DNA from: an uncultured Spartobacteria bacterium
GTDB lineage: Bacteria; Verrucomicrobiota; Verrucomicrobiia; Chthoniobacterales; Chthoniobacteraceae
Reading direction: 5' to 3'
Assembly (NCBI GenBank): GCA_903929475.1
Contig: CAIYUV010000177.1
Span: 1-37,457, forward strand
DNA length: 37,457 nucleotides
The notes beneath the pieces were generated by a model. It was not told the DNA's origin. It saw only the letters and a program-made list of their open reading frames with translations, and did no database searches. A program made the position numbers and the translations under genes. The first letter of the stretch is position 1. Each line of letters begins with the position of its first letter. Positions 61 to 37,121 of the stretch are shown here, in pieces.

Positions 61-631
61 GATGTTGGTTTTTTAGTGATTGATGTTGTGGTGTGTGATG
101 TTGCTGTTTTGTTTTGTTGTTAGGTTTCGTGTCTTGTTGTTGGTTTGATGTTCCGGGGAAAATCTTCCGCGTGTGGATGGGGGAAATACGGCTCTCTGGA
201 TTCGATCTTTCACGAAGTGCGGGATTTTTTCCGCCGACCGACTCCCTCCCCCGCGCCACCAGCCAGCCGACTTGCGCAAATGAATGACTCCGATTGCCGT
301 CGGACTGATTCCGATTGCCGTCGGACTGACTCCGATTGCCGTCGGAATGACTTTCTTGGCTGGGAAAATGCCCATTTTCACCGCCCCAACAGAGAAGACA
401 CCCCTCGGCGACAGAGAAAGCCCCCCATTTTCCGACAAAATGCCCAAACCCACGCTTTGCGCCACGGCACCTTGGTGCGAGGCACGGTAGCGCACGGCGC
501 AGCGGGGCAAAACCAATCTCGATGAGGGCGAGTGCATGGTGTCGTATGGAGGTAAGTGGGAGGATTTCACAAAATACCGATCCTAATAGCAAGCGCGATT
601 TTTTCTCCGCGTCGGTGCTCATCCCAACGGG
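61..631. other. Gene-free leader with repeat remnants
   Basis: Positions 61-150 are unusually T/G-rich on the plus strand (A/C-rich on the minus strand) and look like the leader of the edge gene. Positions 150-260 are GC-rich with no coding frame I believe. Positions 285-347 hold a three-unit 21-bp repeat. Positions 386-420 carry two copies of ACAGAGAA. Open frames here on both strands are low-complexity readings through the repeat, and I do not call them genes. Confidence 0.5.
285..347. repeat. 21-bp tandem repeat array 1 (3 units)
   Basis: Three units start at 285, 306 and 327, each exactly 21 bp, and differ only at one internal base and the last base. A degenerate fourth start (TGACTTTC) follows at 348. 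Each unit contains CCGATTGCCGTCGG, a dyad with CCGA and TCGG arms. On the plus strand the period keeps one frame open as the heptapeptide DSDCRRT. The motif CCAACAGAGAAG follows at 386. Confidence 0.9.
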
Positions 632-713
632 ATGAAATCATTCAGCCCAGGGTTGCGAGGCACGAGCTACCCTGGGTGGATTCCCGTTCCATCCATCAAC
701 CCTGAATGGGTTG
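621..713. repeat. REP-like element with three palindromes
   Basis: Three back-to-back hairpins are visible. ATCCCAACGGGAT is at 621-633. CCCAGGGT (646-653) pairs with ACCCTGGG (669-676) around a 15-base loop. CAACCC (697-702) pairs with GGGTTG (708-713). From memory, this 'GGGATGAAAT...CAGCCCAGGGTTGC' layout resembles dispersed intergenic palindromes of Verrucomicrobiota and Planctomycetota, but I cannot count copies here. The element runs directly into the coding frame of the GYF-domain gene. Confidence 0.7.
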
Positions 714-1156
714 CATCCGAACGAACGGGGGAATTCTTTCTCATTTGGATCTTCTCGATGATTATCGGCTGCATGATTGGCGCAGCGAAGGACAGAGTAG
801 GCTCAGGCTTTGTCTGGAGCTTTCTCTTCGGTCCACTCGGCGTTCTCGTCGTCCTCTGCCTACCGAACCTCAAAAAGCAGAAGGAGGAGACAGAGCGCAA
901 ACAGCAACTCGCGCTTCAACTTCAACTCCAGCAAGCACAACTCCAGAAGCTCGACCAGATTCACCGCAGCGCGCCTCCACCGCCAGGCTACGAACCGAAG
1001 TTGCGCATTGCTTCCAACGGACAAGACTTAGGAGAGATGCCCGTGGCGACCGTCAAACTTATGCTCAAGAGCGGCAAGCTGACTCCGCAGGACTATTACT
1101 TCGACGCCGACTCGAACGACTGGATGCAACTCGACTGTTGCACAGCTTTAGTATGA
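632..1156 (+). CDS. Small membrane protein with C-terminal GYF_2 (DUF4339-like) domain
   Basis: The frame has 174 codons. Residues 36-80 hold two hydrophobic stretches around a small AKDRVGSGF loop, typical of a short inner-membrane hairpin. Residues 84-115 are a Gln/Lys-rich coiled-coil linker. Residues 123-170 (from KLRIASNGQDLGEM to SNDWMQL) look like a GYF_2 domain, with the usual pattern of a Gly-x-hydrophobic segment, a 'V..ML..GKL' helix and a final Trp. The first 28 codons are encoded by the REP-like palindromes, so the native start is uncertain. The next in-frame ATG is at 758, inside the first membrane segment. No good ribosome site precedes either. The protein's role is unknown; GYF domains generally bind proline-rich peptides. 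Confidence 0.7.
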   Translation: MKSFSPGLRGTSYPGWIPVPSINPEWVASERTGEFFLIWIFSMIIGCMIGAAKDRVGSGFVWSFLFGPLGVLVVLCLPNLKKQKEETERKQQLALQLQLQQAQLQKLDQIHRSAPPPPGYEPKLRIASNGQDLGEMPVATVKLMLKSGKLTPQDYYFDADSNDWMQLDCCTALV

Positions 1157-1178
1157 CGCTTTCACCGAACGCAACGTG

Positions 1179-1342
1179 GCCTAACCATGCGCTGCAGCGC
1201 ACATGACCTCGTGTGTGTGGCGCGTGGTGCGCCGGGTCAGTGCAAGTTGACAAATGCGTCGGGTGAAGCGGAACGTGGGCGCGGTTCAATCTATAGCGAC
1301 GAACTCGCGGCTGGCCTTGCGGCCTGGCGGTTCAGGTTAGGC
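1179..1342 (+). other. Possible degenerate integron attC site
   Basis: GCCTAAC at 1179-1185 fits the attC inverse-core consensus RYYYAAC, and GTTAGGC at 1336-1342 is its exact reverse complement and fits the core consensus GTTRRRY. The pair follows the stop of the GYF gene by 22 bases, which is the cassette arrangement. After the first core comes CATGCGCTGCAGCGC, which resembles environmental attC arms. Against this, the 164-bp span is longer than usual and the inner arms do not pair well. No integrase is present in the window. The interval 1157-1494 holds no gene. Confidence 0.35.
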
Positions 1343-1494
1343 TGCGAACACGCGCCACGTTCCAAAGCGTTTCCAAAGTGTATTGGTGAAGGGAAGTAGG
1401 GACAGATTATTTGCATCCCGACCGGCTGCGGTGGTGCATGGAAGTGGTGCGTGTTGTTTTGATGAAGGGCAGGATTGGGCGTGTTTGCCTTCTG

Positions 1495-2829
1495 TCAGCG
1501 TGCGAGTTCTTCGAGGAGGGTGCGGTTGAGGCGGATGCCGGCTTCGAAGTTTTCGATGGGGAAGTTTTCGTCGGGGGCGTGGGCGCGGCAGTCGGGCAGG
1601 GCGAGGCCGAGGAGGAGGGTTTCGGCACCGAGGATTTTTTTGAAGGTGTTTACAATGGGGATGCTGCCGCCTTCGCGGATGAGGGCGGTTTCCCTGCCGG
1701 GGAATGTGCGGGCGAGGGCGCGCCGGGCGGCTTTGCCAAAGGCGCTGTGCGGGTCGGTGGCGTAGGGCTCGCCGCTGTGGCCGTCTTCGATTTCGATGCG
1801 CACGCCGGGCGGGCAGTGTTTTTGCAAATGCGCGCGCACTTTGGCCATGATGTCCGCAGGGCGCTGGCCGGGCACGAGGCGGAAGGTGAGTTTCACGAAG
1901 GCTTCGCGTCCGATGACGGTCTTGCTGCCCGCGCCCTGGAAGCCGCCGCCGATGCCGTTCACTTCGACGGTCGGGCGTGCCCACAGCCGCTCGACGCTCG
2001 TGTAGCCTGCTTCGCCAAAGAGCGCGGGTGAGCCGGTGACGGCGAGGATTTCGGCGTCGCCGAAAGGCAGCCGCGCCCATGCATCGCGCTCCCATTGCTG
2101 GAGCGGCGCGACGTCGTCGTAGAAACCGGCGACGGCGACGCGTCCCTCGGCGTCGTGCAGCGTGGCGACGAGCCGTGCGAGCGCGGTGAGGGGGTTTGCA
2201 ACCGCGCCGCCGTAGATGCCGCTGTGCAAATCGGTCGCCGGGCCGTGGAGGCGCACTTCCATCGCAGCGACGCCGCGCAGTCCGTAGGTGAAAGTGGGCG
2301 TGTCGCGCGCGATCATGCCGGTGTCGGAGATGGCGATGATGTCGCACTTCAACTCTTCGCGATGCGCGGCGAGAAAGGTTTCGAGATGGCTGCTGCCAAC
2401 TTCCTCCTCGCCTTCGATGAGGAAGATCAGATTCACGGGAACGTCGCCTTTTTCGCGCAGCGTCTCCCCCACCCCGAGCACGTGCGCGAGGATCTGGCCT
2501 TTGTTGTCCGTGGAGCCGCGTGCGTAAATCACGCCATCGCGCACGACCGGCTCAAACGGCGGCGAAGTCCACTCAGCGAGCGGGTCCACCGGCTGCACGT
2601 CGTAGTGCCCGTAGATCATCACGGTGCGCCGACCGGCGATGTGTTGATTGCGCGCAACGACGATGGGATGCCCGCCCGTCGCGTGGATTTCCGCTTTCAA
2701 ACCGAGCGCGTTTAATTTCGCACCAAGCCACTGCGCGCACGCCGCGACATCCCCCGCCCGCTCGGGCAGTGTGGAAATGCTGGGAAAGCGGATGAAAGCA
2801 AACAGGTCGTCGAGATGCGCGGAGTTCAT
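1495..2829 (-). CDS. M20 family dipeptidase (metallopeptidase)
   Basis: A cytoplasmic dizinc peptidase of the M20 (carnosinase/CNDP-like) family, 444 aa, full length for the group. Visible motifs: YGHYDVQP at 73-80 (His75 and Asp77, first zinc site), STDNKGQ at 106-112 with bridging Asp108, IEGEEEVGS at 138-146 (catalytic Glu pair), SDTG at 168-171, DLHSGIYGG at 200-208 at the start of the dimerisation domain, and a late RAHAPDENF with the last metal-binding His. This order is diagnostic. Substrate specificity (beta-alanyl or ordinary dipeptides, or N-acyl amino acids) cannot be read from the sequence. It stands alone, 66 bases downstream of the toxin gene on the same strand. Confidence 0.93.
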   Translation of the reverse strand: MNSAHLDDLFAFIRFPSISTLPERAGDVAACAQWLGAKLNALGLKAEIHATGGHPIVVARNQHIAGRRTVMIYGHYDVQPVDPLAEWTSPPFEPVVRDGVIYARGSTDNKGQILAHVLGVGETLREKGDVPVNLIFLIEGEEEVGSSHLETFLAAHREELKCDIIAISDTGMIARDTPTFTYGLRGVAAMEVRLHGPATDLHSGIYGGAVANPLTALARLVATLHDAEGRVAVAGFYDDVAPLQQWERDAWARLPFGDAEILAVTGSPALFGEAGYTSVERLWARPTVEVNGIGGGFQGAGSKTVIGREAFVKLTFRLVPGQRPADIMAKVRAHLQKHCPPGVRIEIEDGHSGEPYATDPHSAFGKAARRALARTFPGRETALIREGGSIPIVNTFKKILGAETLLLGLALPDCRAHAPDENFPIENFEAGIRLNRTLLEELAR

Positions 2830-2895
2830 TGCCGCGACACTGGCAAAAGGATCGGCGCACGTCGAGTGGTGCGCGCAAACTGTGTTCCCAACTTG

Positions 2896-3195
2896 CTATT
2901 GGCGTCGCAACGCAGATCTGATCCGTCTCGGTTCCAGACGGCAATCAAGCACACGCATGACGAGCACGGCACCGTCTGCATCGAAGCGATAGTAGATGGC
3001 CCATGGGAAGCGATGGGAGAGCAGTCTAAAAAATCCGAAGACCATTCGATGGATTCCTGCGTGAAGCGTCAGCGAATCAATGTCCGAAAAAAGGGAATCG
3101 AGAAAGTAAGAACCCAATCCCTCGCCCTGCATTTCGTAAAAGCGACGGCCATCCGCCAAATCATCGCGGGCGGAACTGAGGATGCGGATTTTCAC
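2896..3195 (-). CDS. ParE/RelE-family toxin
   Basis: 99 aa. It has the small basic fold of the RelE/ParE superfamily: an N-terminal beta strand (MKIRILSSARDDL), a helix ending in FYEMQGEGLG, a FLDSLFSDID helix, and a C-terminal beta sheet with FPWAIYYRF and VLVMRVLDCRLEP. The IYYRFD...V..VLDCR pattern is typical of ParE-type toxins that act with a short 'unstable antitoxin'. The gene begins 5 bases after the stop of the antitoxin gene and is presumably co-transcribed and autoregulated with it. ParE members poison gyrase and RelE members cleave mRNA; the sequence alone does not settle which applies. Confidence 0.85.
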   Translation of the reverse strand: MKIRILSSARDDLADGRRFYEMQGEGLGSYFLDSLFSDIDSLTLHAGIHRMVFGFFRLLSHRFPWAIYYRFDADGAVLVMRVLDCRLEPRRIRSALRRQ

Positions 3196-3200
3196 CCTGC

Positions 3201-3431
3201 CTAAACCGTCTTGTTGCGGAGTTCAGCCTTTGCGCGATTCCAATCGAGAATCTCCTCGCGGCCATCTGCCAGTCGGCGCTCCGTCTCAGCAAGCACGCCC
3301 TCATGCCACGCAGGCGACGCCAGCTCAGCCTCTTTGCGGCTCAAGTCACCCCACAAAGTTTCCATCAGGTGCAATTTCTCCGAGTGTGCCAGACGTTCGG
3401 CGGCCTCTTCGATTTCAGCGAGCGTGCTCAT
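3201..3431 (-). CDS. Addiction-module antitoxin (PF09720/TIGR02574-like)
   Basis: 76 aa, acidic and almost entirely helical. The layout is that of the addiction-module component family: an N-terminal helix (EIEEAAERLAHSEKLHLMETLW), then a linker with SPAWHEGVLAETERRLADG and a final WNRAKAEL helix. The W-H-x(2)-V-L-x-E-x(2)-R pattern is the family signature. It precedes the toxin gene by 5 bases, the expected order, so that antitoxin is made first. In related modules the antitoxin masks the toxin and is degraded under stress. Confidence 0.85.
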   Translation of the reverse strand: MSTLAEIEEAAERLAHSEKLHLMETLWGDLSRKEAELASPAWHEGVLAETERRLADGREEILDWNRAKAELRNKTV

Positions 3432-3645
3432 GGCGCGGAACGTAGCACGCCATTGTGCGGGACGTCAACGCGCCCGCTGCGGGGAGGACGACGACCACTA
3501 TCTATCCACTGCCGGAGGGAAACCGCTCGCTTTCTAGCCGGGGGAAATGCGGAGCTGTTGCGCGTGGCGGGTATTTTCCAGAGTGAGGAGCGATAGTCGC
3601 ACGCGATGGCACGACGGCGGCTAGACGCGCGACTGCACTTCGGCC

Positions 3646-4389
3646 ATGCTGAATTTCATGCGCATCATCACTCTACTTTTCGCCTTCGCGGCGGCGGCTT
3701 TCGCGGATACTCCGGCGGAGGAAAATAAACCGGCGGCGGAGACTTTCAAAGCGCCGAAGGAAGTCGCGCCGGGTGTGTTTGAGATCGGCTTGGTGCGCGT
3801 GGACAAGAGCGCTGGCACCGTCTCCTTTCCCGCGAAGGTGAACATGGTGGACGGCCTGCTGGAGTATCTGCTCGTGACGCCGCAGGGACCTGCGCACGAG
3901 AGCCTGTTTGTGAGCGACGCGCCGCCGAAGGAAGTCCACATGGCGATGCTGCTGCTCGGCGCGAAAGGGATGGCGCAGCCAAAGGACGGAGCGATTGCGG
4001 GGCGCATTGATTCCGAGTCCCTCGCGAGGGCACCGAAGCTCACGGGGGATAAAATCACGATCACTGCGGTGTGGAAGGACAAGGCCGGCAAGGAACAAGT
4101 CACGCGCGTCGAGCGCTGGATTGTCCGCATGATTGTCTCGCGGAAGAAAGCCTCGGAGACCGTGCCTGCGGAGGACGGGCCGTGGCTCTACACGGGCAGC
4201 TTTTTTTACGACAACCGCTTCATCGCACAGACCGAGGGCGCGCACGCAGCGCTCGTGACGTATCCCGGCGCGCTCATCAACAACCCGCGCACCGGCTCGA
4301 ACGACGACCACGAGTGGTTCGTGAACAAGGAATCCGTCCCGCCGAAGGACACGCCAGTCACATTCACCATCAAACTCGAACCCAAATGA
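3646..4389 (+). CDS. Secreted YdjY-domain protein
   Basis: 247 aa with a signal peptide (MLNFMRIITLLFAFAAAAFA, cleavage near residue 20). ATG at 3658 is an equally good start and gives a tighter signal peptide. The mature part begins with a Glu/Pro/Lys-rich linker, then a beta-rich domain starting APGVFEIGLVRVDKSAGTVSFPAKVNM and continuing LLEYLLVTPQGPAHESLFVSDAPP. This matches the YdjY-like domain common in Verrucomicrobiota and Planctomycetota as I know it. No enzymatic motif is evident. The stop overlaps the start of the next gene in ATGA, so the two are translationally coupled and probably work together in the periplasm. Confidence 0.8.
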   Translation: MLNFMRIITLLFAFAAAAFADTPAEENKPAAETFKAPKEVAPGVFEIGLVRVDKSAGTVSFPAKVNMVDGLLEYLLVTPQGPAHESLFVSDAPPKEVHMAMLLLGAKGMAQPKDGAIAGRIDSESLARAPKLTGDKITITAVWKDKAGKEQVTRVERWIVRMIVSRKKASETVPAEDGPWLYTGSFFYDNRFIAQTEGAHAALVTYPGALINNPRTGSNDDHEWFVNKESVPPKDTPVTFTIKLEPK

Positions 4390-5540: not shown

Positions 5541-5859
5541 CCAGCCTCAAAGAGGCCGGTGTTTCCCCACGCCTGTCCGCATGGTTGCCAGGGCAGCTTG
5601 GGAAATGGCCCGGCGCTTCCGCGATGGTTTTTCTTGCGTGTGATGAGAAAAGTCCCGGCAGGGATGGCAAGGACGGCCATTCCGTCGCGGCGGGGCTTGC
5701 CTATGTAGAGGGAAACATTTCCCCCGCACGGAATCGCCTGGCCATTTCCGGCAAAATTTCCCAGCAAAGTTGTCAGAAAACAGGCTCCGTAGCAGAAACA
5801 GATAGGGAAAGTGGGGACAAACCCGATGAAAGTGGGGACAGAAAAGAGCGGTGTTATCC
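5541..5859. other. Gene-free spacer before array 2
   Basis: No convincing gene. A short hairpin (GCCTC 5544-5548 with GAGGC 5552-5556) directly follows the stop of the prenyltransferase-like gene but lacks a T-run. At 5807 and 5828 the sequence GAAAGTGGGGACA occurs twice with a spacing of exactly 21, the same period as the array that follows. The open frames here are readings through low-complexity sequence. Confidence 0.5.
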
Positions 5860-6090
5860 CACACGACCGCCCTCCTACTCCACACGACCGCCCTCCTACT
5901 CCACACGACCGCCCTCCTACTCCACACGACCGACCTCCCTCCCCACACGACCGACCTCCCCCTCCACACGACCGACATCCCTCTCCACACGAACGACATT
6001 CCTCTCCACACGAACGACCTCACTTTCCACACGAACGACCTCACTTTCCACACGAACGACCTCCCTTTCCACACGAACGACCTCCCTTTC
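5860..6090. repeat. 21-bp tandem repeat array 2 (11 units)
   Basis: Eleven consecutive units of exactly 21 bp start at 5860. Each begins CACACGAMCG followed by a C/T-rich half. The units change in steps along the array: the first three share one variant, the next few are intermediates, and the last five have CACACGAACGAC. This gradient is what unequal exchange or slippage leaves. Read on the minus strand it gives degenerate heptapeptides such as VWKGRSF. A partial unit follows at 6091. No dyad as clear as in the other arrays is seen. Confidence 0.95.
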
Positions 6091-6103
6091 CACATTGGCG
6101 CTT

Positions 6104-6142: not shown

Positions 6143-6257
6143 TCTCCCCAGCCGACAGATGAGCCCTCCCTTTCCACACTACTGCCCCATCCTCGACACC
6201 ATCCGCTTCTGGGACGCCGCCGAATGGCTCCTCGCCCGCACCATCGGCCTCCACCGC

Positions 6258-9916: not shown

Positions 9917-9922
9917 CGCCTG

Positions 9923-18563: not shown

Positions 18564-19721
18564 ATGAACAAAACACTCACCATCCTCCTCATCGCCATCT
18601 CCGCCTGCATTCCGGCGTATGGCAAGTATATCATCCCGGAACTCAAAGACGTTCCGCTGGAGCGCCTCATCGCTAACATCGCCGAGCGCGTGAAGGCAGA
18701 ACCCGCAAACAGTGAAGCCCTCCACCAACTCGCACGCACGCACGCCATGGCCTATGCGAAAAATATCGCGGATGCTGATTCGGTGAAGACATGGAACGGA
18801 TGGGACAAAAAGGAGCCCGCCACGCCCTACTTCCGGACCGATAGTCCCCACGTCCCCTACGTCAGCGGTGCCAAAGCCGCGAACGAGAAGCGAACGGATT
18901 CTGCCAAGGCTCACCTTGCCACCGCCATCGAGACCTACAAGAAGGCCCTAGCCATCAAGCCCGACGACAACACCATCAAGCTCGGTCTCGCATGGTGCCA
19001 GGAACAGGCCGGAGAAAAGGCTGCCGCCATCGCCCTTTATCGTGAAGTCGCCACATCTGCATGGACAACAGAGAGCAAAAGCACGAGCGCGGGGCTCGGA
19101 GATTTCCTCTATGTCGAGACCGCAGGCTATCTCATCCCTCTCCTCGACCCCACGAAAGATGCCGCCGAAATCGCCGTGCTCAATGAAAGAAAAGAGAAAC
19201 TCCAGCGCCTCATGCGTGATATGACCCCCATCATCATCCCCCTCGCCGAACACACCGCCCTCGCCCCGCTCATCAACCGCCACGCCCGCGTCCGCTTCGA
19301 CCTCGACGGCACCGGGCGCCAGCTCGAATGGCAGTGGATCACCCCCGACGCCGCATGGCTCGTCTTCGACCCGCAGCACACCGGCAAAATCACCTCCGCC
19401 ATCCAGATGTTTGGCAACCGCTCCTTCCTCCTCTTCTGCCCCGACGGCTACCAAGCCCTCTCCCTCCTCGACGACAACCGCGACGGCACCCTCACCGGCC
19501 ACGAACTCGACGGCCTCGCCCTCTGGCGCGACGCCAACGCCAACGGCATCTCCGATCCCGGCGAAGTCCGCCCCGTCACCTCCCACGGCATCACCGCCCT
19601 CAGAATCCGCAGCCAGCAGCACGAAACCGGCATCCCCTTCTCCCCCAACGGCGTCACCTTCCAAGACGGCACCACCCGCCCCACCTACGACATCATCCTC
19701 CAAACCCGCCCGCCCCGGTAA
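18564..19721 (+). CDS. Secreted TPR protein with EF-hand-like calcium loops
   Basis: 385 aa from the ATG at 18564, the start that gives the signal MNKTLTILLIAISACIPAYG. Residues 25-165 are TPR-like (LERLIANIAERVKAEPANSEALHQLART and AIETYKKALAIKPDDNTIKLGLAWCQEQAG). Residues 240-385 are a beta-rich domain with two calcium-loop motifs, LDDNRDGTLTGHEL and RDANANGISDPGEV, as in EF-hand/dockerin-like sequences. It is probably periplasmic or surface-attached. The final codons (QTRPPR then stop) lie in the sequence that is repeated at 36690-36716 beside the other copy of the same type of 21-bp array. Confidence 0.8.
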   Translation: MNKTLTILLIAISACIPAYGKYIIPELKDVPLERLIANIAERVKAEPANSEALHQLARTHAMAYAKNIADADSVKTWNGWDKKEPATPYFRTDSPHVPYVSGAKAANEKRTDSAKAHLATAIETYKKALAIKPDDNTIKLGLAWCQEQAGEKAAAIALYREVATSAWTTESKSTSAGLGDFLYVETAGYLIPLLDPTKDAAEIAVLNERKEKLQRLMRDMTPIIIPLAEHTALAPLINRHARVRFDLDGTGRQLEWQWITPDAAWLVFDPQHTGKITSAIQMFGNRSFLLFCPDGYQALSLLDDNRDGTLTGHELDGLALWRDANANGISDPGEVRPVTSHGITALRIRSQQHETGIPFSPNGVTFQDGTTRPTYDIILQTRPPR

Positions 19722-19790
19722 AGCCCCGCAGCCCCCGCCCGCCCCATCAGGCTACAGAGGAGCTTCTCTGAGGAAAAGAGGAGCGTTATC
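19722..19790 (+). repeat. Conserved leader of array 3 (copy at 36717-36785)
   Basis: This segment, which includes GCTACAGAGG, CTTCTCTGAGGAAAAGAGG and AGCGTTA, is nearly identical to 36717-36785, which precedes array 5. The similarity also extends upstream over the last codons of the preceding gene. The few differences would mostly change amino acids in the minus-strand open frame that covers both copies, which argues that it is not a conserved protein. Confidence 0.85.
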
Positions 19791-20000
19791 GGACGCCGCA
19801 ATAACGTTATCGGACGGCGGAGTAACGTTATTGGACGGCGGAATAACGTTATTGAACGGCGGAGTAACGTTATTGGACGGCGCAATAACGTTATCGGACG
19901 GCGCAATAACGTTATCGGACGGCGGAGTAACGTTATCGGACGGCGCAATAACGTCATTGGACGGCGGAATAACGTTACTGAACAGCGGAATAACGTCACT
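19791..20000. repeat. 21-bp tandem repeat array 3 (10 units, TAACGTTA core)
   Basis: Ten units of exactly 21 bp run from 19791. Each is a GGACGGCGGA-like half followed by a TAACGTTA core; units 8 and 10 have TAACGTCA. TAACGTTA is a perfect palindrome, so eight of the ten units place one every two helical turns. One plus frame reads LDGGITL heptads and a minus frame reads FRRPITL heptads, neither interrupted because the period is a multiple of three. Array 4 starts 17 bases later. Confidence 0.95.
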
Positions 20001-20017
20001 GGAACCAACGGTGTGTT

Positions 20018-20332
20018 CCCTGTGAAGTTCTTGGATTACCCTGCACCTTCCATGGGCTTCCCTGCGCTTTCCATGGACGACCCCGCCGGGAATTTGGACG
20101 ACCCCGCGTCAAAGTTTGACGACCCCGCCAAGTTTTCTGACGACCCCGCCAAGTTTTTGGACGAACCCGCGCCAAGTTTGGAGCACCCCGCCAAGTTTTT
20201 GGACGAACCCGCCGGGAATTTGGAGCACCCCGCGCCAAGTTTTTGGCACCCCGCCAGGTTTTTGGACGACCCCGCCAAGTTTTTGGAGCACCCCGGTGGA
20301 AATTTGGAACACCCCGCGCGAAAAGGGGGCGG
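20018..20332. repeat. 21-bp tandem repeat array 4 (14-15 units, phased T-tracts)
   Basis: Units of exactly 21 bp start at 20018. The consensus has CCCCGCC, then AAGTTTTTGG, then ACGA. The first three units are divergent (two contain CCATGG) and the last is broken at CGCGCGAAAAGGG. CCAAGTTTTTGG has CCAA and TTGG arms, so most units again carry a dyad. In the best-conserved units the T-run recurs every 21 bases, which can curve DNA. Plus-frame heptads read LDDPAKF and LEHPAKF. The array is followed by CCAACAGAGAAGG at 20337. Confidence 0.95.
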
Positions 20333-20625
20333 GCCTCCAACAGAGAAGGACGTTCTCCGTCTCTCGAACTCCACTCTCCCAACTTCAAAGCCCGGCATAA
20401 TAAGCGGCAACGACACTGCCACCAATGCCCTCCATGCTTTCCCTGCCGCCAATCCGCATCCCGTCGCGCCCATGCACGCAGGCTTGAATCCGGCCAGGCA
20501 AGTCGCGCACTGTCACGGCGTGCCGCTTGTAAAAAATACTGAAAACGGAGTCCGCCCGATGCCCTGTCGCCAACCCGGCGGGCGCGCGCCCCGGCCCGCC
20601 AGTCCGCAGACGCCCGCGTGAACGC
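20333..20625. other. Gene-free stretch between array 4 and the next gene
   Basis: It starts with CCAACAGAGAAGG (20337). A minus-strand frame across 20385-20663 has a moderately protein-like end (DLPGRIQACVHGRDGMRIGG), but it overlaps the next gene and I recognise no family. The palindrome GGGCGCGCGCCC is at 20580-20591. I see no RNA gene. Confidence 0.4.
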
Positions 20626-26134: not shown

Positions 26135-27829
26135 TTACTTCGTCGGCGCGCCGGCGTTGCCTTCGTCGAGATACGTCCGGTCGCCGAGCGTGGTGATTTT
26201 CAAATACTGCCGCCACTTGCCCGCGCGGGCTTCGATGGTTTTCGTCTCGGGCTTGGGTGCGTGGAAATCCACGGCGGGCAGCGCTTCGAAGAGAACGCGT
26301 CCGTCCATCTTGTCGCCTCCGGGAATGCCGAGCAGATGGAGAATCGTGGGCGCCACATCCACGTTCGCCGTGGGTAGCGGGTCGCGGAAACCGGCGCGGA
26401 TGTCCGGCCCAGCGGCGACGAGCGTGTTGTGGATGTCGTAGCGGCTGAGCGACGCGTGAACGCCGTTTCCCCCGACCTGACCTTCGGACTTAAATATCCC
26501 GCGCGTGCCGTTGATGTTCTTCGCGTTGGTCCAGCGGATGGAAAAGATCACATCCGGCGAGTCGGGCGTTTCGATGCGCGCGGCGCTCAGCGGGAAAGTC
26601 CCCGGCAATTCGCTGCGCGTAAAAATGGGGCCGGCGAAATCGCTCGCTTGCAGGAAAGCCACCAGCTTCTGCACCCACTCCGCGTCGTGATTTGGCACGT
26701 AGAACTGGATGCTCCCGCCGAGCGAGACTTGCAGGATTTCGCCCGGCATCGGCGTCTTGTGGTAGCCGCGCACGATGTGGAATCCCGCCTTGTTCATCCG
26801 CGTGCCGAGATCCATCCCGCCGTCCGTGGTGGAGAAACCGTGGTCGGACACGACGAAAATATCGGTCTTATCCAGCACACCCTTTTTTTGCAGCGCGGCG
26901 ATGACCATGCCCAGTTCGTTGTCGCTGTCGCGAATCGCCGCGAGCGCGACGGGCGAGCCGGGCTGCGTCATGTGCTGGCTGAAATCCGGGTCGCCGAGCC
27001 ACAGCGTCGTGAAACGCGGGATGCCCTCGCGCCACAGCTCCTCCACGAGCGCGCGCGTCGTCCATCCATTTTGTGCAGTATTCGGAGAAGGCGGCACTCC
27101 GCGAACCGGCGTCGGCACAGCGCTCACGATTTTCTCCGCAGTGGTTGCGGGAGCCGCTGGCGCGTTCGCAGGAACATCGCCCGCAGCCTTCTCCATCGCG
27201 GGCGCCTTCGGCTGCGCACCACCGGGAGGCGGCGGAAACTTGCCGAGCGCCGCGACGATCGGCTCCAGCGCCGATGCGGGATAAGCCTTCCCCGCAAAGA
27301 GAATGGTCGAGGCATTCTGCTCCGGGCGATTCGGCGAACGGTCGTGGAGCAGCGCCACGGATTTCGTCCCCGCGACCACCGTGCGCTGGCCCGCCTGCTG
27401 GATGATTTCTGCCAGCGTCGGCACGCGGATGTATTTCCCCTCGCGCACCTCGTCGCCCTTCTTGCAAGTCTCCGCAGACTCCATCGCCACCGGGTGATAG
27501 GGGTGGATGTCCGGGCGGAACTCCACATTGGCCAGGATGCCGTTGTGCATCGGATAGCAGCCGGTTGCGATGGCCGTCCCGTTCACCTCCGTCGAAGTCA
27601 CATAAACCGAATGCTGGTCCGCAAAAAAAGTCCCCCGTTTAGCCAGCGCATCCAGCACAGGCGTCGTATCCGCGCGGACAAAATCAGGCCGCATCCCGTC
27701 CCAAACCACCAGCACCACATGCTCCGCCTTCCCCTTGAAAGGCTCGGCCTTCCCATTGAGAGGCTCCTCCGCCCACACGGGCGACACGGCGACAAGGACG
27801 GCGAAAAGCGAGAGGCGAAAATGTTTCAT
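26135..27829 (-). CDS. Secreted alkaline-phosphatase-superfamily hydrolase (phosphodiesterase/pyrophosphatase type)
   Basis: 564 aa from the ATG at 27829, with signal MKHFRLSLFAVLVAVSPVWA. Visible: VVWDGMRPDF with metal ligand Asp44, the nucleophile region YVTSTEVNGTAIATGCYPMHNG (76-97) with the candidate Thr/Ser at 78-80, LWLGDPDFSQHMTQPGSP (Asp and His ligands), VVSDHGFSTTDGG (Asp-His pair) and a late HASLSRYDIHNTL with the final His. This is the type I phosphodiesterase/nucleotide pyrophosphatase layout. A Pro/Ala-rich linker (about 205-255) interrupts the fold. The physiological substrate is unknown. It is followed by the metallopeptidase gene, each with its own leader. Confidence 0.88.
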   Translation of the reverse strand: MKHFRLSLFAVLVAVSPVWAEEPLNGKAEPFKGKAEHVVLVVWDGMRPDFVRADTTPVLDALAKRGTFFADQHSVYVTSTEVNGTAIATGCYPMHNGILANVEFRPDIHPYHPVAMESAETCKKGDEVREGKYIRVPTLAEIIQQAGQRTVVAGTKSVALLHDRSPNRPEQNASTILFAGKAYPASALEPIVAALGKFPPPPGGAQPKAPAMEKAAGDVPANAPAAPATTAEKIVSAVPTPVRGVPPSPNTAQNGWTTRALVEELWREGIPRFTTLWLGDPDFSQHMTQPGSPVALAAIRDSDNELGMVIAALQKKGVLDKTDIFVVSDHGFSTTDGGMDLGTRMNKAGFHIVRGYHKTPMPGEILQVSLGGSIQFYVPNHDAEWVQKLVAFLQASDFAGPIFTRSELPGTFPLSAARIETPDSPDVIFSIRWTNAKNINGTRGIFKSEGQVGGNGVHASLSRYDIHNTLVAAGPDIRAGFRDPLPTANVDVAPTILHLLGIPGGDKMDGRVLFEALPAVDFHAPKPETKTIEARAGKWRQYLKITTLGDRTYLDEGNAGAPTK

Positions 27830-27857
27830 GATCTCCAGCATCCTTGCCCAACCCGAC

Positions 27858-27881
27858 ACCCGCACACAAGCCGCACCTGCG
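27858..27881 (-). other. Shared leader element, copy 2
   Basis: Matches 26091-26114 in 23 of 24 bases. It lies 28 bases upstream of the phosphodiesterase ATG at 27829, the same distance as copy 1 from its gene. On the minus strand it reads GCAGGTGCGGCTTGTGTGC followed by GGGTG. The equal position in two secreted-hydrolase leaders suggests a role in expression. Confidence 0.6.
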
Positions 27882-30979: not shown

Positions 30980-31039
30980 AGCAACCGCACTGTCAGCGAA
31001 TGCTCTCATTCGCCCGGCACCAGCGCCAACGCACTTCCC

Positions 31040-31762: not shown

Positions 31763-31848
31763 AATAGTCTTTCTTGGTTGTGCCCGCACCCAAGAAATCG
31801 CGCCTCCCCCCACCTCTGCGCTTAAAATACTTTCCCTTTCACAAAAAC

Positions 31849-32008
31849 ACAATCGCTCGCGACACATGGGAGCGCGGGCAGGAACTCACCGCCCACGGCT
31901 GTGTCTATTTTTTGAAAGACGGTCTCCTCCGCGATTTGAACACCAGCATTACCGACGGCAGAGGAACCCACCAAAGTGCATGAAGACGCGCTCGCGGCGC
32001 TGGCATAA
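31849..32008 (+). pseudogene. Frameshifted C-terminal fragment of a carbonic anhydrase
   Basis: Translation from 31849 gives TIARDTWERGQELTAHG, then CVYFLKDGLLRDLNTSIT. This matches the carbonic anhydrase C-terminus TIARDAWERGQELTVHG onward. After DG, one extra base shifts the frame; the shifted frame reads EEPTKVHEDALAALA and a stop, matching EEPAKMHEAALAALA. About 41 of 52 positions agree by my count. The invariant-looking Trp and Gly of HGWVYG have become Cys and Phe. There is no start or zinc-binding part. It is a leftover of a duplicated or second carbonic anhydrase gene. Confidence 0.85.
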
Positions 32009-32070
32009 TGCAGGGAAAAATCGACAGCCCCTTATCTCACTCAATAAAAAACGGGCACCCTCTTCCGCGT

Positions 32071-32412
32071 TTAGTAATCATACTCCTTGGGGCGATCGTT
32101 TGGAGCCAAGACTGCCTTTGGTTTTTGCAGTTCCTGAAACGTCTTAATTACGCCCGCAATCGAATATCCGAGAAGGAAGAAATTCGGAATCATGAACATG
32201 AAATAAAGACGAGCCGCTGAATGAACCGTATGCGGGCAGCTTTCTGAAATTCCAGACAACCAACCTAGGGGAAACGAGAGTGCACAAAGGACAAGCCCGC
32301 TCAGAGCGGTCAAGTTGTTAGAGGAGCCCGTTCTTGTAATGAGCCACACCAATATGACCGCCCAACATACCGCGAGTAAGATGCTGAGTTTGCCTCCCAG
32401 TGTCATTTTCAT
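32071..32412 (-). CDS. Small membrane protein, unknown function
   Basis: 113 aa from the ATG at 32412; an ATG two codons later is equally possible. Three hydrophobic segments are visible: LSILLAVCWAVILVWLI, LTALSGLVLCALSFPLGWL and LYFMFMIPNFFLLGYSIAGVI, followed by a polar tail ending RPKEYDY. The local composition is less GC-rich than neighbouring genes, which can mean recent acquisition. I recognise no family. It lies just after the carbonic anhydrase remnant and downstream of the DUF1015 gene on the same strand. Confidence 0.6.
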   Translation of the reverse strand: MKMTLGGKLSILLAVCWAVILVWLITRTGSSNNLTALSGLVLCALSFPLGWLSGISESCPHTVHSAARLYFMFMIPNFFLLGYSIAGVIKTFQELQKPKAVLAPNDRPKEYDY

Positions 32413-32482
32413 CACAGCACGGAAGCTACCTAATGGAGCGTGCAAGTGGAAGCGCGTTTTCTCTCAGCTAGCAGACGGAGCT

Positions 32483-33730
32483 TTAAAACGTGTGGATGAA
32501 AAGTCCGCTACGGAGCTTGGGCTCGAACCATGTGCTTTTGGGCGGCATGATTTGGCCGGCGTCGGCGATGTCCATGAGCTGGCCGACGGTGGTGGGGAAC
32601 ATGGAGAAGGCGACGGCGGCTTTGCCGGAGTCCACGAGTTTTACCAGTTCGCCGGGGCCGCGGATGCCGCCGATGAAGTCCACGCGCTTGCTGGTGCGGG
32701 GGTCGTCAATGCCGAGGACGGGGGCGAGGAGGCGCTGCTGGAGGCCTTCCACGTCGAGGCGTGCGGAGGGGTCGGCGTCGGGGGCGGGTTGCCAGGAGAG
32801 GGCGTGCCATTTTCCGCCGAGATACATGCGGATGTCGCCGGGCTTGGCGGGGGTGTCGGAGGTGGTTGGTGTAAGAGTGAAGGCGCGGGCGACTTCGGCG
32901 AGGAATTGTTCGGGCGTGCGTCCGTTGAGGTCTTTGACGACACGGTTGTAGGGCATGATTTGGAGTTGGCTCGCTGGGAAGAGGACGGCGAGGAACCAGT
33001 CGGAGTCGGGCGTGGAATGACCTTTGGCGCGAAGCTCGAGGCCGACGCGGGCGGCGCTGGCGGTGCGGTGGTGCCCATCGGCGACGTAGGCGACGGGGAG
33101 CGTGGCGAATTCTTTCACGAGCACGGCGACGATGGCGGGATCATGGATGGACCAGACGGTGTGCTGGATGCCGTCGGGGGCGGTGAAGTCGTAGGTGGGC
33201 GTCTTGGTTTTTTCGTGGCCAATGATGCCGTCTATCTCCGCACGGTCGCGGTAGGTGAGGAAGACAGGGCCGGTGTCTGCGCGAAGGGTGCCGATGAGGC
33301 GGGTGCGGTCGTCTTCTTTGTCCTGCCGGGTGCGCTCGTGTTTTTTGATGATGTCTTTGGCGAGGGGATTTTGCGCGCGTTCGTGGACGTAGTCGTCCAC
33401 ATGGCAGACGGCGGCGAGGCCGGTCTGGGTGTGTGCGCCCATGCGCTGTTGGTAAAGATAGAGGGCGGGCGCGGCTTCGCGGCGGAGTGCGCCGTTGGAT
33501 TGCAGGCGCTGGAAATTTTCGCGCGCGCGCGAATAGACGGCGTCGGAGTAGGGATCGGTGCCGGGAGGGAGTTCGAGTTCGGCGCGGTCCACGCGGAGGA
33601 GGGTGTTCGGTTTCCCCTCGGCGAGAGCGCGGGCTTCGTCGGTGTTGAGGACATCGTAGGGCACGCAGGCGATGTCGGTGACTTGAGCGGGATCGGGCAC
33701 GAGGCCACGGAAAGAGCGGATGCGGAGCAT
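32483..33730 (-). CDS. DUF1015 family protein
   Basis: 415 aa from the ATG at 33730 (MLRIRSFRGLVPDPAQ), the normal start for the family; a longer frame adds a low-quality leader. Conserved blocks: the RSFRGLVPDPAQV-type opening, ACVPYDVLNTDEARALAEG, the long central IIKKHERTRQDKEDDRTRL, AYVADGHHRTASAA with a His-His pair, and FLAVLFPASQLQIMPYNRVV. These are typical of PF06245 (DUF1015). The function is unknown; in other bacteria it is often beside serA/serC, which are not present here. The conserved GHHR block suggests a nucleotide or phosphate chemistry. Confidence 0.92.
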   Translation of the reverse strand: MLRIRSFRGLVPDPAQVTDIACVPYDVLNTDEARALAEGKPNTLLRVDRAELELPPGTDPYSDAVYSRARENFQRLQSNGALRREAAPALYLYQQRMGAHTQTGLAAVCHVDDYVHERAQNPLAKDIIKKHERTRQDKEDDRTRLIGTLRADTGPVFLTYRDRAEIDGIIGHEKTKTPTYDFTAPDGIQHTVWSIHDPAIVAVLVKEFATLPVAYVADGHHRTASAARVGLELRAKGHSTPDSDWFLAVLFPASQLQIMPYNRVVKDLNGRTPEQFLAEVARAFTLTPTTSDTPAKPGDIRMYLGGKWHALSWQPAPDADPSARLDVEGLQQRLLAPVLGIDDPRTSKRVDFIGGIRGPGELVKLVDSGKAAVAFSMFPTTVGQLMDIADAGQIMPPKSTWFEPKLRSGLFIHTF

Positions 33731-33784
33731 AAGGCCGCGCGTGGTAGCGGGCACGGGGCGCGCGGGCAAGTGCGATGCGGCGGG

Positions 33785-33897
33785 AACTACAGAGCACACG
33801 GAGATCACGGAGGATGTTTTTGAATTTGGGAGGCTGGGAGGCGGGGAAATAATCCCGCTGCTCTTCCTGCTCCGTGTCCTCTGTGCTCTCTGTAGTT
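33785..33897. repeat. Palindromic CACGGAG repeat element
   Basis: The arms 33785-33814 and 33868-33897 are 30-base imperfect inverted copies: the left begins AACTACAGAGCACACGGAG, and the right ends CTCTCTGTAGTT. Each arm repeats a CACGGAG/CACACGGAG word. The loop is about 53 bases. It resembles in design, not in sequence, the ACGCAAAG palindrome at 14903-15017. It sits between the phosphatase homologue's stop and the DUF1015 start. Confidence 0.75.
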
Positions 33898-33902
33898 AAA
33901 TG

Positions 33903-35105
33903 CTACAGCGCGTCTTTGAGGAAGCGGAAGATGTCCGTCTGGTGGAGGAAGCCCTGCACTTTCTCCGCGCCGAGACCGCGCCCGACGGCGATGACGTCCT
34001 CGGCGGTGTTGAGCGCGGCGGGCGACTGGAAGGCGGAGGGCTCGGGGGCTTGCGGACCTTTGGGGCCGCTGGCCCAAGTGATGGCGGGGTTGCCCTCGGG
34101 CGTGGTGCCGAGAAGCGCGGGGCCTTTGTCCTGCCGCAGCGGGTAGCCGCTGAGTGCAAAGCCGCCGATGGCGTGGCGGCCAACGCCGATGACGAGGGAT
34201 TTTTCACCCGAATATTTTACGGCGGTGTCGAGGGCGCGATCCAGTTCGAGCGTTTCGCGGATGGTGTTTTCGCCGTCGTTAATCACGGCGGCCTGGCCGA
34301 CGAGCGCTTCGTCCACGATGAGGACGTAGCCGCTGCGGTTCGTCTGCAAACACTGGATGGCGCGGCGCACGAGATCGCTGAGCGCGGGCTGCGCAACGCC
34401 GGAGTCGCGCTGCTTGCTGAATGCGAGCGGGCCGTTGGCGAAAAGTCCGAACAGCGTGCCGTCGCGATAGGTGGCCGCATTTTCCAGCTCCAGCTTGGTG
34501 CGCACGATCTCGCGTTCGCCGGACTCCAAAAGACTGCGCGCATCTTTGCGGCGTCCGCCTTTGTCGGCGGGGAGAAAATCATCCGCGCCGCCGCCGAGGA
34601 GGACGTTGAATTTCGGCGAGTCCATCAGCGTGGCGGCGAGTGTTTCGCGTTCGGTGCTGTTCGTGGTGTGCGCGTAAAAAGCGGCGGGCGTCGGGTCAGT
34701 CAGGCGGCCATTGGTGACGATGCCCACGGCGCGGCCTTTCTTGCGCGCAAGCTCCAGCAACGATACGAGACTGCGACCATCGCCATCCACGCCGAGAGAA
34801 CGGTGGCGCGTGCGGTGTCCTGTGGCGAGCGCGGTCGCGGCGGAGGCGGAATCGGGCACGGCGAATTGCGCGGCGTCATTTCGCACGATGGCTGTATGCG
34901 GAAAGTTGAGTTCAGTTTCGAGACGATGATCCGCGCCATCATCGTAGAGACGCGCGGCGGTGAGGTGGCGCGAAACGAGGCCGTCGCTCACGACGAGGAT
35001 GATTCCGAAGGGCCGCTGCACGACCCAAAACCGCACGTAGAGACTCCCGAGCGCGAGGAAGGCGACCAGGATGACGAGCGCGAGCAGATGATTGCGAATC
35101 CGCAT
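33903..35105 (-). CDS. Alkaline phosphatase homologue, probably catalytically inactive
   Basis: 400 aa. Residues 7-29 form a signal anchor. The fold markers of alkaline phosphatase are present: LVVSDGL with Asp41, the nucleophile block VPDSASAATALATG (Ser86), TDPTPAAFYAH and LLGGGADDFLP. However, the usual 'VEGGxIDHAxHxND' block is VDEALVGQAAVIND (264-277), so the Asp and His zinc ligands are gone. The 'DHETGG' pair is RHAIGG (310-315), and the usual His before TAED is Asn366. Several metal ligands are therefore missing while the fold motifs remain. I infer a non-catalytic or changed activity. It is on the same strand as the DUF1015 gene. Confidence 0.85.
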   Translation of the reverse strand: MRIRNHLLALVILVAFLALGSLYVRFWVVQRPFGIILVVSDGLVSRHLTAARLYDDGADHRLETELNFPHTAIVRNDAAQFAVPDSASAATALATGHRTRHRSLGVDGDGRSLVSLLELARKKGRAVGIVTNGRLTDPTPAAFYAHTTNSTERETLAATLMDSPKFNVLLGGGADDFLPADKGGRRKDARSLLESGEREIVRTKLELENAATYRDGTLFGLFANGPLAFSKQRDSGVAQPALSDLVRRAIQCLQTNRSGYVLIVDEALVGQAAVINDGENTIRETLELDRALDTAVKYSGEKSLVIGVGRHAIGGFALSGYPLRQDKGPALLGTTPEGNPAITWASGPKGPQAPEPSAFQSPAALNTAEDVIAVGRGLGAEKVQGFLHQTDIFRFLKDAL

Positions 35106-35222
35106 GAAGGCGCGGATTCAACGCAGTGCGCGCTACTTGGCAATGACGGAGTTCCGCTGTGTGTGATTGTGGCGATGTTTTCATTGGCTCGCGGCGGACA
35201 GTGCCACTAGCTTCCGCGTTCC

Positions 35223-35900
35223 ATGCGTTCACGACTGCTTGTCTTCACCGTCTTGCTCTCCGCGATATTCCTTTTCACCGGCTGCGCCACACAGCCGCAC
35301 CGCTCGCTATTTGGCCCGAGGAAAAACAAACGCACGGAGAATGTGTGGCTCGTCAGCAATGGCTGGCACACCTCCATCGCCATGCGTGCAAAAGACGCGC
35401 CGCCGGAGTGCCGCGCCTTCGATGGCAAGGCGCGCTATTTCGTCATCGGCTGGGGCGGGCGCGACATTTACATGAACCGTGATGTGAAGCCGTGGCAGTG
35501 GATTACCTCGGTCGCGCTGCCCACGCCGAGCGCGATGCACATCATCCCCGTCCGCACGACGCTGCTAAAGGAATGCCCGTGCAGCGAGATTATCGAATTC
35601 GACGTGACACCGCGCGGCGTCGCGCACCTGCGCAATCGCGTCCACAACGCATTCGCCCGCGACCCCTACGGCCAGCCCGACATCGCCGGGCCGGGCAAGC
35701 GTGCGTGCAGCAAATTCTTCACCGGCTCGGAAATCTACTACCTCCCGAAGACCTGCAATCTCTGGGCTGCGGCGGGCCTGCGCACCGCTGGCGTCCCGAT
35801 TTGCGCGAGCGTGGCGATTGTTGCCGATAACCTCATCTGGCAGTGCCGACGCTGCGGACATGAACTGGCCGTCTGGCACCACCCTCGCGATCCTTTATAG
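35223..35900 (+). CDS. DUF2459 (TIGR02117-like) lipoprotein
   Basis: 225 aa with a lipoprotein signal ending LFTGC (Cys21). Family features: VWLVSNGWHTSIAM near the start, ARYFVIGWGGRDIYMN, and the C-terminal KTCNLWAAAGLRTAGVPI with Cys and Trp of the CNxWxA motif. The NGWHT and CNxW blocks suggest a papain-like Cys/His arrangement, but activity has not been shown to my knowledge. A CxxC pair (CRRCGHE) near the end is extra. The gene is 45 bases upstream of msrA on the same strand, so they may be co-transcribed. Confidence 0.85.
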   Translation: MRSRLLVFTVLLSAIFLFTGCATQPHRSLFGPRKNKRTENVWLVSNGWHTSIAMRAKDAPPECRAFDGKARYFVIGWGGRDIYMNRDVKPWQWITSVALPTPSAMHIIPVRTTLLKECPCSEIIEFDVTPRGVAHLRNRVHNAFARDPYGQPDIAGPGKRACSKFFTGSEIYYLPKTCNLWAAAGLRTAGVPICASVAIVADNLIWQCRRCGHELAVWHHPRDPL

Positions 35901-35945
35901 AGTGCGGAATAGAATGCGCGCTTTGCACTCTCACTCACACACACT

Positions 35946-36593
35946 ATGATACACCACATGACCCGCAGACTTTTCATCCTCGCAGCAGCACTGCTGACTG
36001 CATCCTTCAACACCAACGCCGCCGAAAAAGTGAACACCGAAACCGCCAAACCCGCCGCCACCGCCAACCAAAAGATCGTCGTCGGAGGCGGCTGCTATTG
36101 GTGCGTCGAAGCCGTCTTCCAGCGCCTCGAAGGCGTGAAAGCCATCAAGTCCGGCTTCTCCGGCGGCCATGTGAAAAATCCCACCTACGAGCAAGTATGC
36201 ACCACCAACACCGGCCACGCGGAAGTCGTGCAGATCGAATTTGATCCCGCCGTGCTCACCCTCGACAAACTGCTCGATGTCTTCTTCGTCGCCCACGACC
36301 CGACCACGCTGAACCGTCAGGGCCGCGATGTCGGCGAGTCCTACCGCTCGGTGATATTTTACGCGAACGACGATCAGAAAAAAGCCGCCGAAGCCGCGAA
36401 AGTGCGCGCCAAGTCGGAGTGGAAAGACCCCATCGTCACCGAGATTTCACCCCTCAAAGAATTCTACGCCGCAGAGGACTACCACCAGAATTACTTCAAC
36501 CTGAACAAGGACAAGAATCCGTATTGCAGCGTCGTCATCGCGCCAAAGCTGAATAAGCTGCTGAAGATGGGCGTGATCAAAGAAAAGCAGTAG
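35946..36593 (+). CDS. msrA: Exported peptide methionine sulfoxide reductase A
   Basis: 215 aa; an ATG at 35958 (MTRRLFILAAALLTAS) is an alternative start with a compact signal. A signal peptide and a 20-residue Thr/Ala/Lys linker precede the catalytic domain. Visible: VGGGCYWCVEAVF with the nucleophile Cys50 in GCYWC (usually GCFWC), GFSGGHVKNPTYEQVCTTNTGHAEVVQIEFDP, FFVAHDPTTLNRQGRDVGESYRSVIF, and AAEDYHQNYF. NPYC near the C-terminus provides the recycling Cys. It reduces S-methionine sulfoxide in envelope proteins; the signal indicates the periplasm. The redox-active TPR-thioredoxin protein in this window is a conceivable partner. Confidence 0.95.
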   Translation: MIHHMTRRLFILAAALLTASFNTNAAEKVNTETAKPAATANQKIVVGGGCYWCVEAVFQRLEGVKAIKSGFSGGHVKNPTYEQVCTTNTGHAEVVQIEFDPAVLTLDKLLDVFFVAHDPTTLNRQGRDVGESYRSVIFYANDDQKKAAEAAKVRAKSEWKDPIVTEISPLKEFYAAEDYHQNYFNLNKDKNPYCSVVIAPKLNKLLKMGVIKEKQ

Positions 36594-36602
36594 CACCGCG
36601 AC

Positions 36603-36657
36603 ATGGCACAGGCGTCCCGACTGTGGGGCGGCGGACGTCTCGCCCGCAGTGTGCCAT
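36603..36657. repeat. Inverted repeat after msrA
   Basis: ATGGCACA (36603-36610) is inverted exactly as TGTGCCAT (36650-36657). Inside, GGCGTCCCGACTGTG and GGACGTCTCGCC give further partial pairing. It begins ten bases after the msrA stop and could serve as its transcription end, though no T-run follows. From memory, 'TGGCACAGGCGTCCCG' is a dispersed repeat in related genomes. Confidence 0.55.
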
Positions 36658-36671
36658 GCACGGAGGCCGCG

Positions 36672-36716
36672 ATGAAGCCGGTCGGCATCATCCATCAGAC
36701 CCGCCCGCCCCAGTAA
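36672..36716 (+). pseudogene. Tail-end remnant similar to the 3' end of the 18564-19721 gene
   Basis: The frame ends GIIHQTRPPQ and a stop, compared with DIILQTRPPR and a stop at 19721. The nucleotide match runs straight on into the shared array leader (36717-36785). No upstream homology to the rest of that gene is visible, so this is a short copied 3' end carried with the array cassette. Confidence 0.55.
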
Positions 36717-36785
36717 AGCGCCGCAGCCCCCGCCAGCCCCCTCGGGCTACAGAGGGGCTTCTCTGAGGAAAAGAGGAGCGTTACC
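36717..36785 (+). repeat. Conserved leader of array 5 (copy of 19722-19790)
   Basis: Nearly the same as 19722-19790, including GGGCTACAGAGG, CTTCTCTGAGGAAAAGAGG and AGCGTTA. It ends exactly where the first 21-bp unit begins, as in the other copy, so leader and array behave as one cassette. Confidence 0.85.
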
Positions 36786-37079
36786 GGACGGTGGAATGAA
36801 GTCATTGGACGGCGGAATGAAGTCATTGGACGACGGAATGAAGTCATTGGACGACGGAATGAAGTCATTGGACGGCGGAGTGACGTCATTGGACGGCGGA
36901 GTAACGTTATTGGATGGTGGAATAACGTTATTGGACGGCGGAATAACGTTATCGGACGGCGGAATAACGTTATTGGATGGTGGAATAACGTTATTGGACG
37001 GCGGAATAACGTTATTGGACGGCGGAATAGCGTTACTGGACGGCGGAATAACGTTACTGGACGGCGGAATAACGACCTG
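36786..37079. repeat. 21-bp tandem repeat array 5 (14 units)
   Basis: Fourteen units of exactly 21 bp start at 36786. All share a GGACGGCGGA half. The core changes in blocks: TGAAGTCA in units 1-4, TGACGTCA in unit 5, TAACGTTA in units 6-11 and 13, TAGCGTTA in unit 12. TGACGTCA and TAACGTTA are both perfect palindromes. The last unit decays to AACGACCTG. The unit is the same type as in array 3. Confidence 0.95.
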
Positions 37080-37121
37080 CCAACAGAGAAAACAGCCTCT
37101 CCAACAGAGAAAGACGTCGCC
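37080..37121. repeat. Two CCAACAGAGAA units after array 5
   Basis: Two units begin CCAACAGAGAAAACAG (37080) and CCAACAGAGAAAGACG (37101), spaced exactly 21 bases. The same word follows array 4 at 20337 and array 1 at 386. It therefore looks like a fixed trailing part of these arrays. The stretch 37122-37322 is GC-rich with no gene that I can support. Confidence 0.75.

Follow-up and report, generated by a model that had tools for sequence, protein, structure and literature searches.

Tandem arrays with 21-bp units of many different sequences occur in the noncoding DNA of the bacterial genus studied here, and the pattern is confirmed as real and beyond chance. Five such arrays lie in the window, a stretch of 37,457 nucleotides that is the whole of contig C177 in draft genome G000 (4.5 Mb, 295 contigs). 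Across the genus, 18 of 22 noncoding arrays of at least 2.8 copies, in stretches not picked by array matches, have a period of 21, 42 or 63 bp (here ‘21k’), as against 1/13 coding arrays (Fisher 4e-5). We interpret them as noncoding satellites of constant unit length that would gain and lose whole units under a sequence-blind length rule, with modules that would be copied between loci, an interpretation to which we give an even chance of being correct.

Judged by a single protein, the dihydrodipicolinate synthase of the window, whose nearest named relatives come from Verrucomicrobiota metagenome genomes (identity up to 63%), the host probably belongs to that phylum. The genomes compared are G007, the sister genome of G000 (mean identity of G000–G007 alignments 86.7%), four other species of the same genus (G001, G003, G006 and G008), another genus of the family (G011) and another family of the order (G014).

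Arrays of the window

TRF and gapless cutting both recover the five arrays with 21-bp units named in the original prediction (Table 1), and alignment of each to its best consensus upholds the claim that they contain no indels. Where the original prediction counted at least four unit types there are four, the arrays at 19784 and 36779 both carrying CGTTATTGGACGGCGGAATAA and forming one family. The fourth array is clear only from 20074, and the decayed 21-mers in front of it agree with the start of 20018 given originally. All TRF rows for the window with a score of at least 50 and a period of at least 10 fall at 21, 42 or 63 bp, the array at 20074 being given as period 42 and 63 as well. TRF prints indels of 3% for the array at 5859, on a 20-nt consensus, and of 11% for that at 20074 at period 21 (0% at 63); the units of both hold register when cut gaplessly at 21.

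Table 1. Arrays of the window and the parts that flank them.
Feature	Position	Strand	Unit or relationship	Basis
Array	285–352	.	unit TGACTCCGATTGCCGTCGGAC, 3.2 x 21 bp	TRF; 2 mismatches, 0 indels
Array	5859–6094	.	21-bp unit CCACACGACCGACCTCCCTCT, 11.2 copies	TRF; 25 mismatches, 0 indels
Leader (end of upstream gene and its 3′ flank)	19688–19783	.	common to 36683–36778 and other loci	
Array	19784–20003	.	21-bp unit CGTTATTGGACGGCGGAATAA, 10.5 copies	TRF; 19 mismatches, 0 indels
Decayed 21-mers between arrays	20004–20073	.	common to contigs C22 and C233	
Array	20074–20317	.	unit TGGACGACCCCGCCAAGTTTT and variants, ~11.6 units, 63-bp higher order	TRF; 32 mismatches, 0 indels
Tail after 20074 array (GCGAAAAGGGGGCGGGCCTCCAACAGAGAAGGACG)	20318–20352	.	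shared with C22 and G007 C48	
Leader copy	36683–36778	.	homologous to 19688–19783	
Array	36779–37074	.	14.1 copies, 21 bp, family of 19784	TRF; 28 mismatches, 0 indels
Tail with CCAACAGAGAA 21-mers	37080–37121	.	common to contig C85	

By Pfam, the array at 5859 is flanked on one side by a squalene-hopene-cyclase-like gene and on the other by a ThiF/rhodanese gene. None of nine other same-genus genomes shows a 21-bp array in the 1.5 kb downstream of the latter gene; G003 carries 2.5 copies of an 84-bp repeat in that interval, G007 continues with other sequence, and the comparison yielded no clean empty site. A partial unit stands alone at 6163–6178, in register and 84 bp (4 x 21) past this array, the bridging sequence being no longer unit-like, and the flank also scored one different, out-of-phase unit match. 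Elsewhere in the window, a 21-bp repeat of 2.2 copies (27721–27767) lies within a long ORF on the minus strand (26135–27865), and past the last array tail there is an inverted repeat with perfect 23-bp arms (37323–37345 and 37435–37457), a related imperfect one being found behind the array in contig C85 (L010:451–604).

Excess of period 21 in noncoding DNA

TRF was run on the window and on sampled stretches rather than on complete genomes. Period statistics took arrays of at least 2.8 copies and period of at least 10, with stretches chosen through array matches kept apart, and arrays were labelled coding or noncoding by a home-made hexamer gene caller that required coding signal outside the array. 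By genome, 21k arrays make up 11/14 of the noncoding arrays in G000 (680 kb), 3/3 in G007 (571 kb) and 4/5 in the set of G001, G003, G006 and G008 (249 kb). The G000 count includes as noncoding one array, L214 at 5899, whose coding signal is close to the threshold. Periods of 20 and 22 bp are absent among the same-genus noncoding arrays of at least 2.8 copies, while the coding arrays have periods of 12, 15, 18, 24, 54 and 138, with one at 21. Among named bacteria outside the genus, a small set that includes 11 Verrucomicrobiota stretches, none of five noncoding arrays in 1.28 Mb is 21k (Fisher 0.0016); both Fisher tests treat arrays as independent, which arrays of one family are not. Within the order, 2/2 noncoding arrays are 21k in G014 (60 kb) and 0/1 in G011 (60 kb). 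The G011 stretches (L189–L191) lack 21k arrays but have two short repeats of 20 bp, and the step length there might differ from 21, with little sequence behind this suggestion.

The excess is weaker under a cruder labelling (every overlap with an ORF counted as coding, arrays taken regardless of copy number, score of at least 60), by which 2/6 noncoding and 5/14 ‘coding’ arrays of G000 are 21k, because stop-free arrays were themselves called genes. At score 60 and any copy number, 3/18 noncoding arrays outside Verrucomicrobiota and Lentisphaeria have period 21, and the stricter count is 0/4. Outside the arrays, lag 21 in noncoding DNA is raised in G000 (z 3.3, second to lag 9), in G007 (z 3.0, level with lag 12) and in the other same-genus species (z 4.2), and is not raised in named Verrucomicrobiota (z -0.1) or in G011 and G014 together (0.3); multiple-of-three lags are generally raised, so uncalled coding DNA contributes to this signal. 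Young repeats give a mixed answer on a preference for 21 bp: 9/18 same-genus noncoding TRF arrays of fewer than 2.8 copies are 21k, and 21 bp accounts for 6/33 two-copy repeats outside arrays (1/13, 4/12 and 1/8).

Register and indels

To follow register we used a pooled set of 54 arrays (10,747 bp), some of which have weak 21-bp substructure. The set takes in stretches that had been selected because of an array, and below 2.8 copies it accepts periods of 42 and 63 bp but no others; its tally of 54/58 noncoding and 4/19 coding 21k arrays is biased by this admission rule and was unused as a test. With whichever consensus of 21, 42 or 63 bp fits best, the 54 arrays align with 922 mismatches and 25 indels, the indels being confined to eight arrays, six of these with zero net shift, and register is kept end to end in 52 of the 54. 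An earlier count, in which a 21-mer consensus was imposed on the 42- and 63-bp arrays too, gave 38 indels in 47 arrays. In control noncoding alignments between G000 and G007 (5,430 bp), 857 mismatches are accompanied by 102 indels, a rate that would predict about 110 indels in the arrays versus the 25 observed, a depletion that is in part built in because TRF prefers regular arrays.

Register also extends beyond the arrays: the 150-bp flanks of 46 arrays hold 44 further unit matches, 35 in phase and nine out, many of the in-phase ones perhaps directly at the array edge, and shuffled units give 6.3 out-of-phase matches and none in phase. Divergence is slightly higher at the edges of arrays than in their interior (p 0.013, n = 30 arrays), and the array substitutions, 172 transitions versus 114 transversions in a raw count without a control, look ordinary. 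In the sampled stretches, as distinct from complete genomes, there is thus a peak at 21 and no abundance of single-base indels in the relatives, the two points on which the original prediction could have failed.

Modules and whole-unit change

Several arrays belong to modules of leader, array and tail that recur at several loci, with a conserved leader and tail found in just two families, CGTTATTGG and TGGACGACC. The two leaders of the window are 90% identical across 96 bp, and related leaders occur in G000 and G007. The decayed 21-mers at 20004–20073 match C22 and C233 at 94% over 69 bp and 90% over 60 bp, the tail at 20318–20352 is 100% identical to C22 (35 bp) and 96% to G007 C48, and C85 is 100% identical to window 37080–37168 (89 bp).

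The modules of C22 (in G000) and C48 (in G007) are probable orthologs, as judged by their flanks. They are 96.9% identical, with two gaps of 21 bp in the array and one of 1 bp near the start, and the following 1.1 kb is 97.3% identical with one 2-bp gap and another gap of 21 bp. Identity at this locus (L016:65–1547 versus L135) is about 97% versus a mean of about 87% for alignments between the two species, and a recent exchange is therefore possible. The window module at 20001–20352 is equal in length to that of C22 and 94% identical, with one compensated 3-bp shift, and the module of the array at 20074 is 92% identical to G007 C48.

In G007, the locus that corresponds to 19784 retains the leader and the upstream gene (protein 86% identical); there a different 21-mer family precedes the CGTTATTGG family (by eye; TRF partly gives a 42-bp repeat), and the right flank resembles that of 36779/C85. 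Arrays of the window run from one family into another in series from 19784 to 20317. Six of the 33 G000 arrays lie at most 60 bp from a contig end, so that the apparent exchange of modules could partly be assembly error.

Two further observations concern the surroundings of arrays. In contig C21 (L014:529–1674) a CGTTATTGG array ends after about five units and the sequence then enters a tyrosine recombinase gene (Pfam Phage_integrase); the junction comes right after GAAC, which we take to recall an IS91-type insertion. Translated repeats that look leucine-rich by eye, with periods of 138, 207, 138 and 69 bp, occur at L010:1004–1513, L027:1–397, L235:720–1102 and L136:9190–9389, some of them near 21-bp arrays.

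Sequence families and possible common descent

Single linkage at 16/21 matching positions sorts the 54 pooled arrays into 29 sequence families. G000 alone has 18 families in 33 arrays. The CGTTATTGG family, that of the array at 36779 and the sole family searched for, was found in two of 19 genomes, G000 and G007 (in the latter at 88%), while period 21 recurs across the genus. The leader of the 36779 array and the 20318 tail each match four of 19 genomes, all of the same genus, those beyond G000 and G007 weakly.

It is possible, though we doubt it, that all families go back to one ancestral array of 21-mers whose copies spread around the genome and then drifted, with homogenisation keeping the length and no ruler needed. 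Such descent would fit the serial arrangement of families between 19784 and 20317 and the copying of modules between loci, as well as the best shared 5-mer of G000 (CGTCC/GGACG, in 6/18 families, P 0.044) and a slight upper-tail excess of family pairs with at least 13 matches (4.2% versus 2.0%). The best 6-mer of G007 similarly occurs in 4/11 families (P 0.012), and because some families share words, common descent may account for part of the pattern. Shared words are weak overall (P 0.01–0.09 per species), and k-mer tests for a universal motif across the pooled families were not significant, with no word common to all. Against common descent, the mean similarity of family representatives, 10.04/21, is about that of shuffled units (9.85). 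Length 21 moreover recurs with other units in G014 and, according to the portions of PMC8161180 available to us, in other bacterial groups as well. Under neutral drift, finally, indels would be expected at closer to the control rate.

What may set the length

The period excess, the register and the 21-bp steps agree with the original contention that constant length with varied sequence calls for something that either generates length or selects for it. In our preferred reading, of satellites under a sequence-blind length rule, arrays would lengthen and shorten by whole units via slippage or unequal exchange, and modules would spread between loci through recombination. Against this reading, slippage alone leaves the missing off-length units unexplained, so selection or a gated process would be needed. 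The sequence-blind factor that would set the length is likeliest a step, about two helical turns long, in the machinery of copying or exchange, and the rule itself, as we infer it, is probably tied to two DNA turns plus a lineage-specific factor. Exactly 21, without 20 or 22, is tighter than a preference for helix pitch would give, which likewise counts against the reading. The step differs between lineages (21 here, 20–21 in Bacillus, 23 in Porphyromonas), as one would expect of a lineage-specific factor more than of the helix alone. Most likely the length is fixed by such a machinery step, and neither by a code nor by a protein that binds a particular sequence; at the individual sites the arrays are probably not regulatory elements but spacer DNA that is tolerated.

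A stronger version, which we think rather unlikely, has a lineage-specific ruler that works in fixed steps of 21 bp, such as a polymerase, a recombinase or a reverse transcriptase, building and maintaining arrays from arbitrary sequence; the arrays would then be footprints of an undescribed enzyme activity throughout the order, with slightly different steps across bacteria.

Selection could also keep the spacing if a nucleoid or regulatory protein polymerised along the DNA with a 21-bp, two-turn repeat, a proposal already made for this repeat class (PMC8161180, in the portions available) that we consider unlikely for the present arrays. Register kept in arrays and flanks would be in line with it, as would a weak enrichment of dyad symmetry (Z 3.5; p 0.005 versus genomic 21-mers), so that a sequence-specific form of the lattice first proposed for the window has weak support from dyads and shared words. 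Against it, no motif is common to all families, the arrays show no clear preference for gene orientation (9/10/4 in divergent, tandem and convergent spacers, or 15.3/8.6/12.1 per 100 kb, as descriptive counts), and a sequence-blind lattice would not require repeated sequence at all. Nor is there A/T phasing at 10.5 bp. Phased bent DNA, which had been among the original suggestions, likewise finds no support: the A/T signal at two cycles per unit has Z 1.18 and -1.69, and the AA/TT/AT signal is raised at one (Z 3.06) and three (Z 3.53) cycles per unit.

That the arrays represent noncoding RNA or hairpins, with a fold in every unit, is very improbable: two of 29 families fold strongly (z about -3) and the weak dyad excess would suit hairpins, but a combined z of -1.8 over the 29 families gives no clear excess of stability, and the window has no Rfam match at gathering thresholds. 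Translation into heptapeptide repeats, the arrays being small coding genes, was suggested at the outset, 21 bp being seven codons and a multiple of three, and is in keeping with at least one frame open throughout in 53/54 arrays, yet it is scarcely credible given that synonymous bias is absent in the best open frame (combined z -1.9, 24 arrays), that three array ORFs scanned have no Pfam match, that the coding arrays of the genus use other periods in all but one of 13 cases, and that 3-bp indels, bearable in coding arrays, are just 3 of the 25. On the gene caller, the codon test and Pfam together, the arrays appear to be noncoding.

Comparison with known systems

The original view that no described system fits must be given up, as the class is in print. 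In the available portions of PMC8161180, Subirana and Messeguer describe repeats of constant size (20–21 or 52 nt) and variable sequence, report 20–23 nt repeats from many bacterial groups, remark on the two-turn length, and suggest a protein polymer or small RNAs for this class. Satellite expression is reported in B. coagulans (PMC8625621, in the portion available). The 20–23 nt class resembles the present arrays in having one length with several sequence families per genome, mostly noncoding, and in the limitation of families to a species or close relatives, which in our case comes from one family. The differences are that the published class spans 20–23 nt whereas our arrays of at least 2.8 copies are exactly 21; that most repeats of a species are said to carry a short characteristic sequence whereas no word is common to all our families; and that some of our arrays, unlike that class, occupy leader-array-tail modules. 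The 52-nt Bacillus repeats are likewise constant in size and variable in sequence but differ in size and lineage, and are transcribed in B. coagulans (PMC8161180, same portions); by our own arithmetic 52 nt is close to five helical turns.

As to the host, Verrucomicrobia were not met in those portions of PMC8161180, and ‘verrucomicrobi’ is absent from the main text of PMC6749651. Among the matches listed in a literature search, a paper on one verrucomicrobial genome mentions tandem repeats, without a 21-bp pattern in the part available.

A likeness in architecture is found, in the available portions of PMC4596501, in BrickBuilt of Porphyromonas gingivalis, a 23-bp minisatellite inside a MITE that is intergenic and has units of about two turns, as here. 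It shares with our arrays a leader and tail, dispersed copies and whole-unit expansion and contraction between strains, but it is one sequence family with terminal inverted repeats where ours are many families.

The present arrays thus belong to a published, poorly explained class of constant-size repeats, to which the host lineage may be new. To this class the clade adds quantitative constraints, namely a register kept while sequence drifts and an ortholog pair differing by whole 21-bp steps. With the coding, bending and folding tests negative and the motif and dyad signals weak, the question narrows to what measures length, for which the sister genomes offer test material.
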